Positions 21,879-25,559 of a stretch of 64,000 bases of DNA are shown here, piece by piece. Below the pieces are notes generated by a model. The model was given only the letters and a program-made list of their open reading frames with translations. It was not told the origin of the DNA and did no database searches. The position numbers were made by a program, and so were the translations under genes. Each line of letters opens with the position of its first letter. Positions within the stretch are counted from its first letter, which is position 1. The DNA comes from Aeromicrobium phoceense (lineage in GTDB: Bacteria > Actinomycetota > Actinomycetes > Propionibacteriales > Nocardioidaceae): NCBI RefSeq assembly GCF_013868155.1, contig NZ_JACEOG010000002.1, positions 248,001-312,000 on the forward strand. The letters are read 5' to 3'.

Positions 21879-22610
21879 GTGGAGGTCACCGAGGTCGCGG
21901 ACGGCATCTGGTTCGCGCACACCGAGTTCGTCAACTGGATCGTGCTGGTCGAGGACGGGCGCGCGGCGCTCGTGGACTGCGGCTACCCCGGGCAGGCCGC
22001 GCTGGTGGAGGAGTCCGTGCGCCGCGCCGGCGCCACGATGGACCAGGTCGAGGCCCTCGTCGTGACCCACAACCACGTCGACCACACCGGGTCGATGCCG
22101 GCGCTGGCCGCCCGCGGCGTGCGGGTGCTCGCGGGGGCTGAGGAGCTGCCGATGCTCCGGGGCGAGCGCGTCGAGAGCGCCACCACGGCCGACGTCCTCG
22201 TGCGCGCCTGGCGGCCCCGGGTGCTGCGCTGGGCCCTGGGCATCGCCCGCCTCGGCGCGTCGGGGCATCCGCGGGTCGACGACGCCGAGGCGGTGACGCC
22301 CGGGACGCCGCTCGACATCGCCCGCTCACCCGTTCCGCTGCACCTGCCGGGCCACACCTCGGGGCACCTGGCGCTGTACTTCCCCGAGCAGCGTGCCGTG
22401 GCCACGGGGGACGCGCTCGTGACCGGGCACTCGCTCAGCCCGGTCGAGGGCCCGCAGGCGATCGACGCGTTCTTCCACCACGACACGGCCCGGCTGCGCG
22501 CGACGCTGCCGGACCTCGCCCTGCTCGACGCCGACCTCGTGCTGCCGGGTCATGGGCCCGTCGCCCACGTGCCGATCGCCCGGGCCGTCGGTGAGGCGCT
22601 GAGTCACTGA
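21879..22610 (+). CDS. Metallo-beta-lactamase-fold hydrolase
   Basis: A 243-residue MBL-fold protein. Metal motifs are THNHVDHTGSM (HxHxDH), LPGHTSGHLAL, ATGDALVTG and LPGHGPV at the C-terminus. The spacing is like glyoxalase-II-type or other thioesterase-like hydrolases; the C-terminal helices needed for glutathione binding are absent. GTG 21879 follows TAGGTT (21867-21872) by 6 bases, so it is probably leaderless. Its TGA overlaps the ATG of the E1 gene by one base (TGATG), so the two are translationally coupled and may act in one pathway. Confidence 0.9.
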   Translation: MEVTEVADGIWFAHTEFVNWIVLVEDGRAALVDCGYPGQAALVEESVRRAGATMDQVEALVVTHNHVDHTGSMPALAARGVRVLAGAEELPMLRGERVESATTADVLVRAWRPRVLRWALGIARLGASGHPRVDDAEAVTPGTPLDIARSPVPLHLPGHTSGHLALYFPEQRAVATGDALVTGHSLSPVEGPQAIDAFFHHDTARLRATLPDLALLDADLVLPGHGPVAHVPIARAVGEALSH

Positions 22611-24724
22611 TGGAGACGATCGACGAGTACGTCGTCCGCGTGCTGCCGGAGCTGCGTGCGGATCCCGGCGGGGAGCGGGACGCGGACGTGGACGCCCTGC
22701 GTCGGCTGTTCGCCGCCCAGGTCCAGAGCCGGCACCTCGACTTCGCGGCGCGCTGGCTGCAGGCGCAGGGCCAGGGGCACTACACGATCGGCTCCGCCGG
22801 GCACGAGAGCAACGCCGCCCTCGGCCTGCTGTCGGAGGTCACCGACCCGGCGCTGCTGCACTACCGCTCGGGCGGACTGTACGCGGCGCGGTCGGCCAAG
22901 GCCGGACGCGACGACGGGGTGCGGGCGGTCCTGCAGAGCCTCACCAGCGCCCGCAGCGACCCGATGTCGGGCGGGCGGCACAAGGTCTTCGGCCATCCGG
23001 CGCTCAGCATCATCCCGCAGACCTCCACCATCAGCTCGCACCTGCCGCGCGCCGTCGGGCTGGGGCTGGGGCTCGGCTTCGCCCGGAGGCTGGGCCGACA
23101 CACCGCGTGGCCCGAGGACGCCGTCGTGCTGTGCAGCTTCGGCGACGCCTCGGTCAACCACTCGACCGCCGTCGGTGCGCTCAACGCCGCGGCCTACCTC
23201 ACGCACCGGGGGCTGGAGTGCCCCGTGCTGTTCGTGTGCGAGGACAACCGGATCGGCATCAGCACCGCGTCGCCCGTGGGCTGGCCGGGCGCCATGCTGG
23301 AGCGGCTCCCCGGGATCGGCTACCGGACCGCGGACGGGGACGACCCGGTCGGCCTGCTGGCGCAGACGCGGGACGCGCTCGACGAGGTGCGCTCCAGCCG
23401 TCGGCCCGGGGTGCTGCACCTGAGCACCGTCCGGTTCCTCGGTCACGCCGGCTCCGACACCGAGATCGCCTACCGCACACGGCGCCGGATCGAGGCCGAC
23501 CACGTCCACGACCCGCTCGTCGCGACCGCCCGGGCGCTCGTCGACGCCGGCGCGATGACCGGGGCCGAGGCACTCGACGCCTACGAGGAGATGCGCCGGA
23601 CCGTCATGGAGGGGGCCGAGGCGATCATCGGCGAGGCGCGCCTGGAGTCGCGTGCCGCCGTCACGGCGCCGCTCGCGCTGCCGTCGGTCGCTTCGGTGGC
23701 CGGGGAGCCGGCCGACGGACCGCGGCGCACCCTGGCGCAGGCGATCAACGCCACGCTCGTGGAGCTGCTGGAGGAGCACGGCGAGACCTTGGTCTTCGGT
23801 GAGGACGTGGCGGTCAAGGGCGGCGTCTACGGCGTGACCCGCGGCCTGCGCAAGCGCTTCGGCGGTCAGCGCGTCTTCGACACGCTGCTGGACGAGCAGA
23901 CGATCCTCGGCACGGCCCTGGGCACGGCGTTGGCCGGGTTCGTGCCGATTCCCGAGATCCAGTACCTGGCGTACCTGCACAACGCGGAGGACCAGCTGCG
24001 TGGCGAGGCCGCCTCGCTCGCCTTCTTCTCCGCCGGCCAGTACCGCAACGGCATGGTGGTCCGCGTCGCCGGACTGGCCTACCAGCGAGGCTTCGGCGGC
24101 CACTTCCACAACGACAACTCGGTGGCCGTGCTGCGTGACATCCCCGGACTGGTGCTTGCGGTCCCGAGCCATCCCGCCAACGCTCCGGGACTGCTGCGGG
24201 CCTGCCACGAGCTCGCCCGGCAGGGACAGGTGTGCGTGTACCTCGAGCCGATCGCGCGCTACCACTCCCGCGACCTGCACGAGGAGGGCGACGGCCTGTG
24301 GACCGCGGCCGCCTCGGAGGGTGCGGTCATCGCCCCGGGGGAGCTCGGGGTGCACGGCGACGGCCGCGACGTCGTGCTCGTCACGTTCGGCAATGGCACG
24401 TTCATGAGCCTGCGGGCGGCGGAGGTCCTGCGGGCCCAGGGCATCGAGGCGACCGTCGTCGACCTGCGCTGGCTGGCGCCGCTGCCCGAGGAGCGGATCG
24501 TCGACGCGTGCCGCGACTTCGACGCGGTGCTCGTGGTCGACGAGACCCGTCGCTCCGGCGGCGTGGGGGAGGGAGTCGTGAGCGCCCTCGTCGCCGGACG
24601 ACACCCGGGCCGCATCGCGCGCGTCGCCAGCGCCGACAGCTTCATCCCGCTGGGCCCGGCCTCCGACCAGGTGCTCCTGGGCGAGGACGAGATCGTCCGC
24701 GCCGCGCTCGCCCTGCTGGCCTGA
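22610..24724 (+). CDS. Fused alpha-beta E1 subunit of a 2-oxoacid dehydrogenase-type enzyme
   Basis: A 704-residue fusion of the E1-alpha domain (about 1-350) and E1-beta domain (about 375-704). The alpha part has the TPP motif SFGDASVNHSTAVGALNAA, ending in CEDN, and the phosphate-anchoring HYRSGGLYAAR. The beta part has FGEDVAVKGGVYGVTRGL and RRSGGVGEGV. It is similar to fused branched-chain-type or acetoin-type E1 enzymes, but no E2 or E3 gene lies nearby. The ATG at 22610 is coupled to the MBL stop. Substrate is unknown; a link with the MBL hydrolase (CoA or acyl-thioester) is inference. Confidence 0.85.
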   Translation: METIDEYVVRVLPELRADPGGERDADVDALRRLFAAQVQSRHLDFAARWLQAQGQGHYTIGSAGHESNAALGLLSEVTDPALLHYRSGGLYAARSAKAGRDDGVRAVLQSLTSARSDPMSGGRHKVFGHPALSIIPQTSTISSHLPRAVGLGLGLGFARRLGRHTAWPEDAVVLCSFGDASVNHSTAVGALNAAAYLTHRGLECPVLFVCEDNRIGISTASPVGWPGAMLERLPGIGYRTADGDDPVGLLAQTRDALDEVRSSRRPGVLHLSTVRFLGHAGSDTEIAYRTRRRIEADHVHDPLVATARALVDAGAMTGAEALDAYEEMRRTVMEGAEAIIGEARLESRAAVTAPLALPSVASVAGEPADGPRRTLAQAINATLVELLEEHGETLVFGEDVAVKGGVYGVTRGLRKRFGGQRVFDTLLDEQTILGTALGTALAGFVPIPEIQYLAYLHNAEDQLRGEAASLAFFSAGQYRNGMVVRVAGLAYQRGFGGHFHNDNSVAVLRDIPGLVLAVPSHPANAPGLLRACHELARQGQVCVYLEPIARYHSRDLHEEGDGLWTAAASEGAVIAPGELGVHGDGRDVVLVTFGNGTFMSLRAAEVLRAQGIEATVVDLRWLAPLPEERIVDACRDFDAVLVVDETRRSGGVGEGVVSALVAGRHPGRIARVASADSFIPLGPASDQVLLGEDEIVRAALALLA

Positions 24725-24771: not shown

Positions 24772-24816
24772 GTCAACACGGGTTGACGAATGAGTCGCCT
24801 GTCAACTAGGGTTGAC
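24772..24816 (+). promoter_or_regulatory. Two copies of GTCAAC-N4-GTTGAC operator
   Basis: GTCAAC-ACGG-GTTGAC (24772-24787) and GTCAAC-TAGG-GTTGAC (24801-24816) are two perfect inverted repeats, 29 bases centre to centre. The second contains the TAGGGT -10 (24807-24812) of the HTH gene, whose ATG is at 24820. Binding there would block transcription, so negative autoregulation by the HTH protein is likely. Confidence 0.75.
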
Positions 24817-24819
24817 CAC

Positions 24820-25029
24820 ATGACGCATTCCGCACTGGTGGACTCCGCAGCGGGCGATGACCCGGCTGTCGGGCTGCGGGCGGTGAGGTCGCTGCGCGAG
24901 CTCGCCGACCGGCTCGAGTCGCTCCAGGTCGCCCGGGCCCGACAGCTCGGCTGGTCCTGGCAGGAGGTCGCCGAGGCTCTCGGCGTCAGCAAGCAGGCGG
25001 TCCACAAGAAGCACGGCAGGAGCAAGTGA
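24820..25029 (+). CDS. Small helix-turn-helix protein
   Basis: A 69-residue protein. The C-terminal half is a compact HTH (ARQLGWSWQEVAEALGVSKQ then AVHKKHGRSK) with a leading helix (RSLRELADRLESLQVAR). No ligand domain is present. An earlier in-frame ATG at 24790 would add 10 residues but would lie inside the operators; ATG 24820 fits a leaderless transcript, 7 bases after TAGGGT. The stop shares bases with the start of the Clp-N gene (TGATG). Paired small HTH and Clp-N proteins occur in other actinobacteria, usually as unstudied genes. Confidence 0.85.
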   Translation: MTHSALVDSAAGDDPAVGLRAVRSLRELADRLESLQVARARQLGWSWQEVAEALGVSKQAVHKKHGRSK

Positions 25030-25559
25030 TGTTCGAGAAGTTCTCCCACGAGGCCCGCACCGCCGTCGTCGCCGCACAGGAGGTCGCGCGGGAGTCGGCC
25101 ACCCGCCGGATCGACACGCGCCACCTGCTCGTCGCCCTGACGCGAGCCCAGGGTCCGGCCCGCACGGCGCTCGAGGCGTCGGGGGTCGACGTCGCCGGGC
25201 TGTCTGCCCGGGCACTCGCCGATCTCCGGTCCGGCGGTCTCGATGCCGACGCGCTCGCGGGCATCGGCATCGACCTGGAGGCGGTGCGCCGTGAGGCGGA
25301 GCGGACCTTCGGGGCTGATGCGCTGGAGCGTGCGGGACGCGCTCGCGGCGGCCACATTCCGTTCGCGCCGGAGGCGAAGAAGGCGCTCGAGCTCGCTCTG
25401 CGCGAGGCCATCCGGCTGAAGCAGAAGCGGATCGACGGGGGACACCTGCTGCTCGGCATCCTGCGCGCGGACTGCGCCGGACGCGCCCTCCTCGTGGAAG
25501 CCGGCGTCGACACGGGCGCCCTCCGGACGGCGATCGAGGGCCGGCGCAGCGCCGCCTGA
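25029..25559 (+). CDS. Clp N-terminal domain protein without ATPase
   Basis: A 176-residue protein of two Clp-N repeats (about 4-75: SHEARTAVVAAQEVARES, RHLLVALTR; and about 105-170: PEAKKALELALREAIRLKQK, GGHLLLGILR). It lacks the AAA+ modules of ClpA/ClpC. Stand-alone Clp-N proteins could act as adaptors, substrate receptors or stress sensors for ClpC. ATG 25029 overlaps the HTH stop by one base and has AGGAG 6 bases upstream (25018-25022); GTG 25026 is an alternative. It is co-controlled with the HTH gene through the GTCAAC-N4-GTTGAC operators. Confidence 0.88.
   Translation: MFEKFSHEARTAVVAAQEVARESATRRIDTRHLLVALTRAQGPARTALEASGVDVAGLSARALADLRSGGLDADALAGIGIDLEAVRREAERTFGADALERAGRARGGHIPFAPEAKKALELALREAIRLKQKRIDGGHLLLGILRADCAGRALLVEAGVDTGALRTAIEGRRSAA

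Follow-up and report, generated by a model that had tools for sequence, protein, structure and literature searches.

Does a 69-residue helix-turn-helix (HTH) protein, encoded behind two inverted repeats and coupled to a Clp-N protein without ATPase modules, represent a new kind of regulatory module? The question comes from a preliminary description, made from sequence alone, of a locus in a 64,000-nucleotide stretch of the Aeromicrobium phoceense genome, referred to here as the window. Sequence comparison leads us to regard the module as real, conserved and autoregulated; we see in it not a new kind but a split form of the ClpC2 system. Its features are the following, in window coordinates.

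24772-24787, no strand: distal operator GTCAAC-ACGG-GTTGAC, an exact palindrome (GTCAACACGGGTTGAC) whose right half contributes the -35
24783-24788, plus strand: -35 element TTGACG, within the right half of the distal operator
24801-24816, no strand: proximal operator GTCAAC-TAGG-GTTGAC, an exact palindrome (GTCAACTAGGGTTGAC) ending 3 bp 5′ of the ATG
24807-24812, plus strand: -10 element TAGGGT, inside the proximal operator
24820-25029, plus strand: 69-aa HTH protein (P0001), putative autorepressor; ATG at 24820; Pfam HTH_23 and HTH_3 over cut-off
24991-25014, plus strand: predicted recognition helix codons (residues 58-65, KQAVHKKH), from an AlphaFold2 model and covariation with operator bases
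25027-25031, plus strand: TGATG, in which the HTH stop overlaps the Clp-N start; inferred translational coupling
25029-25559, plus strand: 176-aa stand-alone Clp-N protein (P0002); PF02861 at 1e-14; no ATPase module

Tandem operators overlap the promoter of a short HTH gene

Both inverted repeats, which had been described as identical, proved exact, and a scan of the whole genome (3,270,508 bases) for more sites returned no other exact copy of GTCAAC-N4-GTTGAC. Going by base or dinucleotide composition, chance alone would give 0.06-0.10 single sites per genome and about 2e-7 pairs within 60 bp. The explanation that these are chance palindromes beside unrelated genes can draw on a scan of the window alone, in which operator matches with 2 mismatches were no commoner than in shuffles. 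It nevertheless has next to no probability, since both sites are exact and unique in the genome, and it is refuted by the conservation of the arrangement across many families of the class. The Pfam assignments and the TGATG overlap also bear out the earlier reading of a 69-residue HTH coupled to a Clp-N protein lacking ATPase modules.

With 29 bp from one to the other, the two operators cover the -35 and -10 elements of the HTH gene promoter, which are separated by an 18-bp spacer. One repeat had been placed over the -10, and the proximal operator does hold this element; the account was incomplete, however, in that the distal operator supplies the -35. Since the ATG lies 3 bp past the operator that holds the -10, the HTH transcript is predicted to be leaderless. 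Among homologous loci, the TTGAC hexamer and the -10 are separated by 17 bp in 68 and by 18 bp in 37, and TANNNT is present in the proximal operator of 106 of 113 loci versus the distal operator of 9 of 112. Rfam gave no match in this region.

The preliminary description had considered the pair undescribed. In ClpC2 of M. tuberculosis (Rv2667), a single protein that dimerises via residues 4-72, a Clp-N domain is part of the same chain. ClpC2 is an autorepressor acting via CGTCAAC-n5-GTTGACG sites 1-2 nt before the ORF; in many cases a further copy lies upstream, so that the -35 and -10 are covered. This repression is lifted by cyclomarin A, heat induction being mild, about twofold (PMC10030653). 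The fused protein, the operator half-sites, autorepression, and ligand and mild heat induction had thus been published in 2023, and novelty in that sense must be given up. As for the split HTH and Clp-N pair, our literature search found no paper on it.

The split pair is widespread in Actinomycetes

A search with the window HTH protein in 121 genomes of the host's family yielded about 25 close homologues, nearly all of them with a Clp-N gene next; at nearly all protein-search loci the two operators are 27-29 bp apart and 2-4 bp upstream of the ATG. At the DNA level, a pattern of two N4 palindromes in tandem matched 52 of the 395 class genomes scanned, against 0 for a reversed control pattern, and the 30 loci fetched from this search carry a short HTH ORF directly 3′ of the operators. 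Clp-N is the next gene in 61 of 71 distinct short-HTH loci, and the -1 offset between the two genes is the commonest layout (19 of 61 pairs). With a split Clp-N protein as query in a family rich in fused ClpC2, the HTH and Clp-N pair was found with N4 sites, partly degenerate, in 17 of 41 genomes. The window locus itself is syntenic in two further genomes of the same genus. The split pair is widespread in Actinomycetes: operators and HTH are conserved together, and the arrangement recurs in many families of the class. This conservation, together with covariation between operators and recognition helix (see below), upholds the view of the HTH as autoregulated.

Some neighbouring and solitary genes were recorded along the way. 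The ORF upstream of the pair (704 aa, window 22610-24724), which adjoins it also in L006 and L007, would by our reading encode a 2-oxoacid dehydrogenase E1 with its alpha and beta subunits fused. One split pair (L031) has its HTH reading frame broken by a frameshift, either a sequencing error or decay. A second kind of solitary Clp-N, encoded at L179:529-1167, bears a C-terminal extension, is near ClpC1-NTD (125 bits), and has neither an HTH nor an operator upstream.

Operator spacers differ between split and fused loci

In a set of 113 distinct loci that was partly selected by spacer, the spacer is N4 in 73 of 73 short-HTH loci and N5 in 40 of 40 fused loci, the latter including L114 although it has no Clp-N. 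Because part of the set was chosen in this way, the safe wording is that N5 tandems stand mostly before fused genes and N4 tandems before short ones. The protein-search loci, whose choice was independent of the spacer, are all N4 and short. A tandem N5 pattern matched 84 of 390 genomes, and 27 of the 30 loci fetched by it encode a fused protein, the others being L114, which is RelI-like, and L113 and L122, which are without one; fused-type loci were also fetched from one family besides this pattern. At L113, the tandem N5 operators are followed by a small membrane-protein-like ORF and then by an HTH-containing ORF (SWAAIGGVLGLSRQAVQQRF). Tandem N5 operators also lie directly 5′ of a methyltransferase-like ORF (L122) and near a monooxygenase-like ORF (L096), both possible further targets of fused ClpC2.

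Fused ClpC2 and the split pair reside together in five checked genomes, given here as split/fused loci: G267 (L042/L112), G128 (L048/L134), G181 (L056/L139), G195 (L057/L140) and G253 (L047/L124). In a Clp-N tree, which is unrooted and whose bootstrap has not settled, all fused domains group in a single clade (100/98) that lies among the split ones.

The N-terminal HTH is the candidate DNA reader

The AlphaFold2 model of the window HTH (pLDDT 84) places the motif in helices 47-54 and 58-65. A Foldseek search with this model returned generic HTH domains only, every E value being above 0.4. An HMM built from split HTHs only matched 40 of 40 fused N-termini with a median E of 3e-11, the best of 800 shuffles reaching 0.14, and hhalign of the split HTH versus the fused N-terminus gave an E of 1e-9. 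By these measures, the window-type HTH and the N-terminal domain of ClpC2 are homologues. The D46-R57 salt bridge of the ClpC2 dimer is also reflected in the short proteins, 80 of 91 rows retaining the acid-R pair (D30-R41 in the window).

The 8ADA crystal chain can be aligned 1:1 with a fused homologue as far as residue 72; the stretch that follows in the homologue, TKQAAQKRF, is the recognition helix. The published ClpC2 fragment (residues 4-72) consequently stops just short of this helix. The DNA contacts of ClpC2 were assigned by the authors to the Clp-N domain (R185/R189; PMC10030653); an HTH region in ClpC2 has already been noted (PMC13284704).

Covariation points to the HTH. Base 5 of the operator varies with the recognition helix, GTCAGC going with Q-T..HRK in 5 of 5 loci and GTCAAC with Q-A; two loci have mixed operator sites. 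The rule, drawn from L028, L029 and L034, predicted L142 and L143, which were found by a tandem GTCAGC search, and both obey it. Given the few independent lineages, the base-5 covariation is strong support, not proof, that the N-terminal HTH is the DNA reader. A second pairing, between the H-x-K motif and the inner operator base, is suggestive: the base is C in 187 of 202 half-sites where the motif has K, but in only 25 of 64 where it has Q, a pattern concentrated in one family and with L103 as an exception.

HTH and operator cassettes occur with other partners

The same HTH family and tandem operators are also found without any Clp-N gene (L032, L033, L053-L055 and L059). In L044:1-1500 and L045:1500-3042 the cassette is followed by an ABC-transporter transmembrane gene (PF00664) that shares a 4-bp overlap with the HTH gene; here the start codon lies about 36-44 bp past the N4 operators, which are tandem in L044 and triple in L045. 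A gene for a beta-lactamase-fold serine hydrolase (PF00144) is overlapped by the cassette in L053:284-1497 and L054:1548-2782. In L032, L033, L034 and L059/L107, such operators precede a short HTH gene that has no recognisable partner downstream. HTHs of this family may accordingly not need Clp-N.

The Clp-N protein and a proposed mechanism

The window Clp-N protein matches ClpC1-NTD and ClpC2-CTD chains, to which it is homologous, and is identical to ClpC1 at F2, F5, R10, Q17, F80, K85 and E89. Both Glu of the T-E-H motifs, which in the ClpC of B. subtilis are phospho-arginine sites, are absent and replaced by R and G. In ClpC1 numbering, F2, F80 and E89 correspond to F96, F172 and E181 of Rv2667, the cyclomarin contacts in ClpC2 (PMC10030653). 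As these groove residues are retained, the window protein could in principle bind cyclomarin-type ligands. The arginines of the ClpC2 CTD, R185 and R189, are both kept in 37 of 40 fused versus 13 of 61 split Clp-N proteins, and their equivalents are both retained in the window protein. An AlphaFold2 model of Clp-N was set aside (pLDDT 52, 2-row alignment). A Pfam search of the genome found three Clp_N proteins: the window protein and two long ones, an 878-aa frame that we interpret as ClpC1 and a 909-aa frame that we interpret as ClpB. This search did not turn up a fused ClpC2.

We consider it probable that the window encodes a split ClpC2-type autorepressor together with a Clp-N sponge or sensor. 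A dimer of the 69-aa HTH would bind both GTCAAC-N4-GTTGAC sites over the -35 and -10 and hold the operon off, and the co-translated Clp-N would offer the ClpC1 ligand groove without an ATPase. Abundant Clp-N could then bind unfolded segments or ClpC1-directed cyclic peptides and draw them away from ClpC1. The inducing signal would most likely be Clp-N occupancy (or ClpC1 overload), passed to the HTH in trans and leading to derepression, as ClpC2 does within one chain. This action in trans is less certain than the reading as a whole; the link between Clp-N and repression is plausible because ClpC2 unites both in a single chain and is derepressed by cyclomarin A, a ligand of its Clp-N domain (PMC10030653).

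Two observations count against the trans step. Cassettes without Clp-N but with the same operators suggest that repression and induction can work without it, and the R185/R189 pair is mostly not conserved in split Clp-N proteins, which may thus play no part at the DNA. Both fit an alternative that we hold to be possible but doubtful: the HTH would be a self-sufficient autorepressor with its own signal, or would be degraded by ClpC1P, and Clp-N would be an effector only (sponge or holdase) with no action on the HTH. Such independence would agree with cassettes that also control an ABC-transporter-like gene, a PF00144 gene or no detected partner. A functional link is favoured, however, by the conserved pairing with Clp-N, present at 61 of 71 loci, and by the natural fusion, in which ligand binding to Clp-N lifts DNA binding (PMC10030653).

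A specific form of the trans step would have HTH and Clp-N sit on the DNA as one complex, with Clp-N a co-repressor needed for tight binding and the ligand removing the complex. Consistent with this, the isolated ClpC2 C-terminal domain and dimer-deficient R57A are weaker DNA binders and R185A/R189A has reduced affinity (PMC10030653), and the window Clp-N has both arginines. We nonetheless judge it unlikely, given the scarcity of the arginine pair among split proteins and the partnerless HTHs with identical operators.

If the split ClpC2-type reading is correct, it suggests an inducible ClpC1 shield in many actinomycetes. ClpC2 sponges cyclomarin A away from ClpC1 (PMC10030653) and shields mycobacteria from cyclomarin-type ClpC1 ligands; its DNA reading is still modelled on the Clp-N domain. 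In the split form, reader and sensor are separate proteins, and this form, with the covariation, points to the N-terminal HTH as reader; it also provides a small two-protein system for direct testing of the trans step. New here are the wide occurrence of the split pair, the spacer difference between split and fused loci, the covariation, the HTH homology to the ClpC2 N-terminus and the wider cassette family; of these, we rate the spacer difference, the covariation and the cassette family as the most useful. More tentatively, one may imagine a class-wide family of very small HTH autorepressors whose leaderless promoters contain tandem palindromes and drive protective genes that can replace one another, whether for a Clp-N sponge, an ABC transporter or a beta-lactamase-fold hydrolase. 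In this picture ClpC2 would be a single later fusion, the 1-bp spacer change would keep paralogues in one cell apart, and split Clp-N would signal in trans.

Comparison with known systems

Regulation of the ClgR or HspR type was rejected, as the window operator GTCAAC-N4-GTTGAC differs from the ClgR and HAIR motifs. The type II toxin-antitoxin class was also rejected, the partner being Clp_N only, with no toxin fold. A looser toxin-antitoxin-like pair, with the HTH as antitoxin and autorepressor and Clp-N as toxic partner, is very improbable. Modules of this kind typically repress themselves and have overlapping genes, 9sdc was matched, and RelI (Rv2664), the antitoxin of RelS, is a small actinobacterial HTH related to that of ClpC2 (PMC13284704). 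The Clp-N partner, however, has a ClpC1-type ligand groove and no known toxin fold, and in M. smegmatis ClpC2 is protective and a derepressed mutant has no growth defect (PMC10030653). Unlike RelI, which is paired with a ribonuclease toxin, the window HTH groups with HTHs that precede Clp-N under tandem operators.

ClpC3 (MSMEG_3761; locus tag from PMC10454040) is a small Clp protein, an induced stress factor alongside ClpC2, that binds cyclomarin and ecumicin (PMC10864484). We weighed PDB 8b9o as a possible ClpC3 but dropped it as ClpC2-like: it scores 180 bits against fused ClpC2 and 42 bits against split Clp-N, and being far closer to the former it is unusable as a ClpC3 reference. With the ClpC1 N-terminal domain, the window protein shares the Clp-N double repeat, but it lacks the D1/D2 ATPase.

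The closest likeness is to ClpC2, with which the window pair shares an HTH-type domain and Clp-N, tandem GTCAAC/GTTGAC operators over the -35 and -10, a leaderless start and the lack of an ATPase. It differs from ClpC2 in that the pair consists of two overlapping genes, not one polypeptide, in that split Clp-N proteins do not as a rule keep both C-terminal arginines, and in the operator spacer, which is 4 bp instead of 5 bp, with half-sites and position alike.
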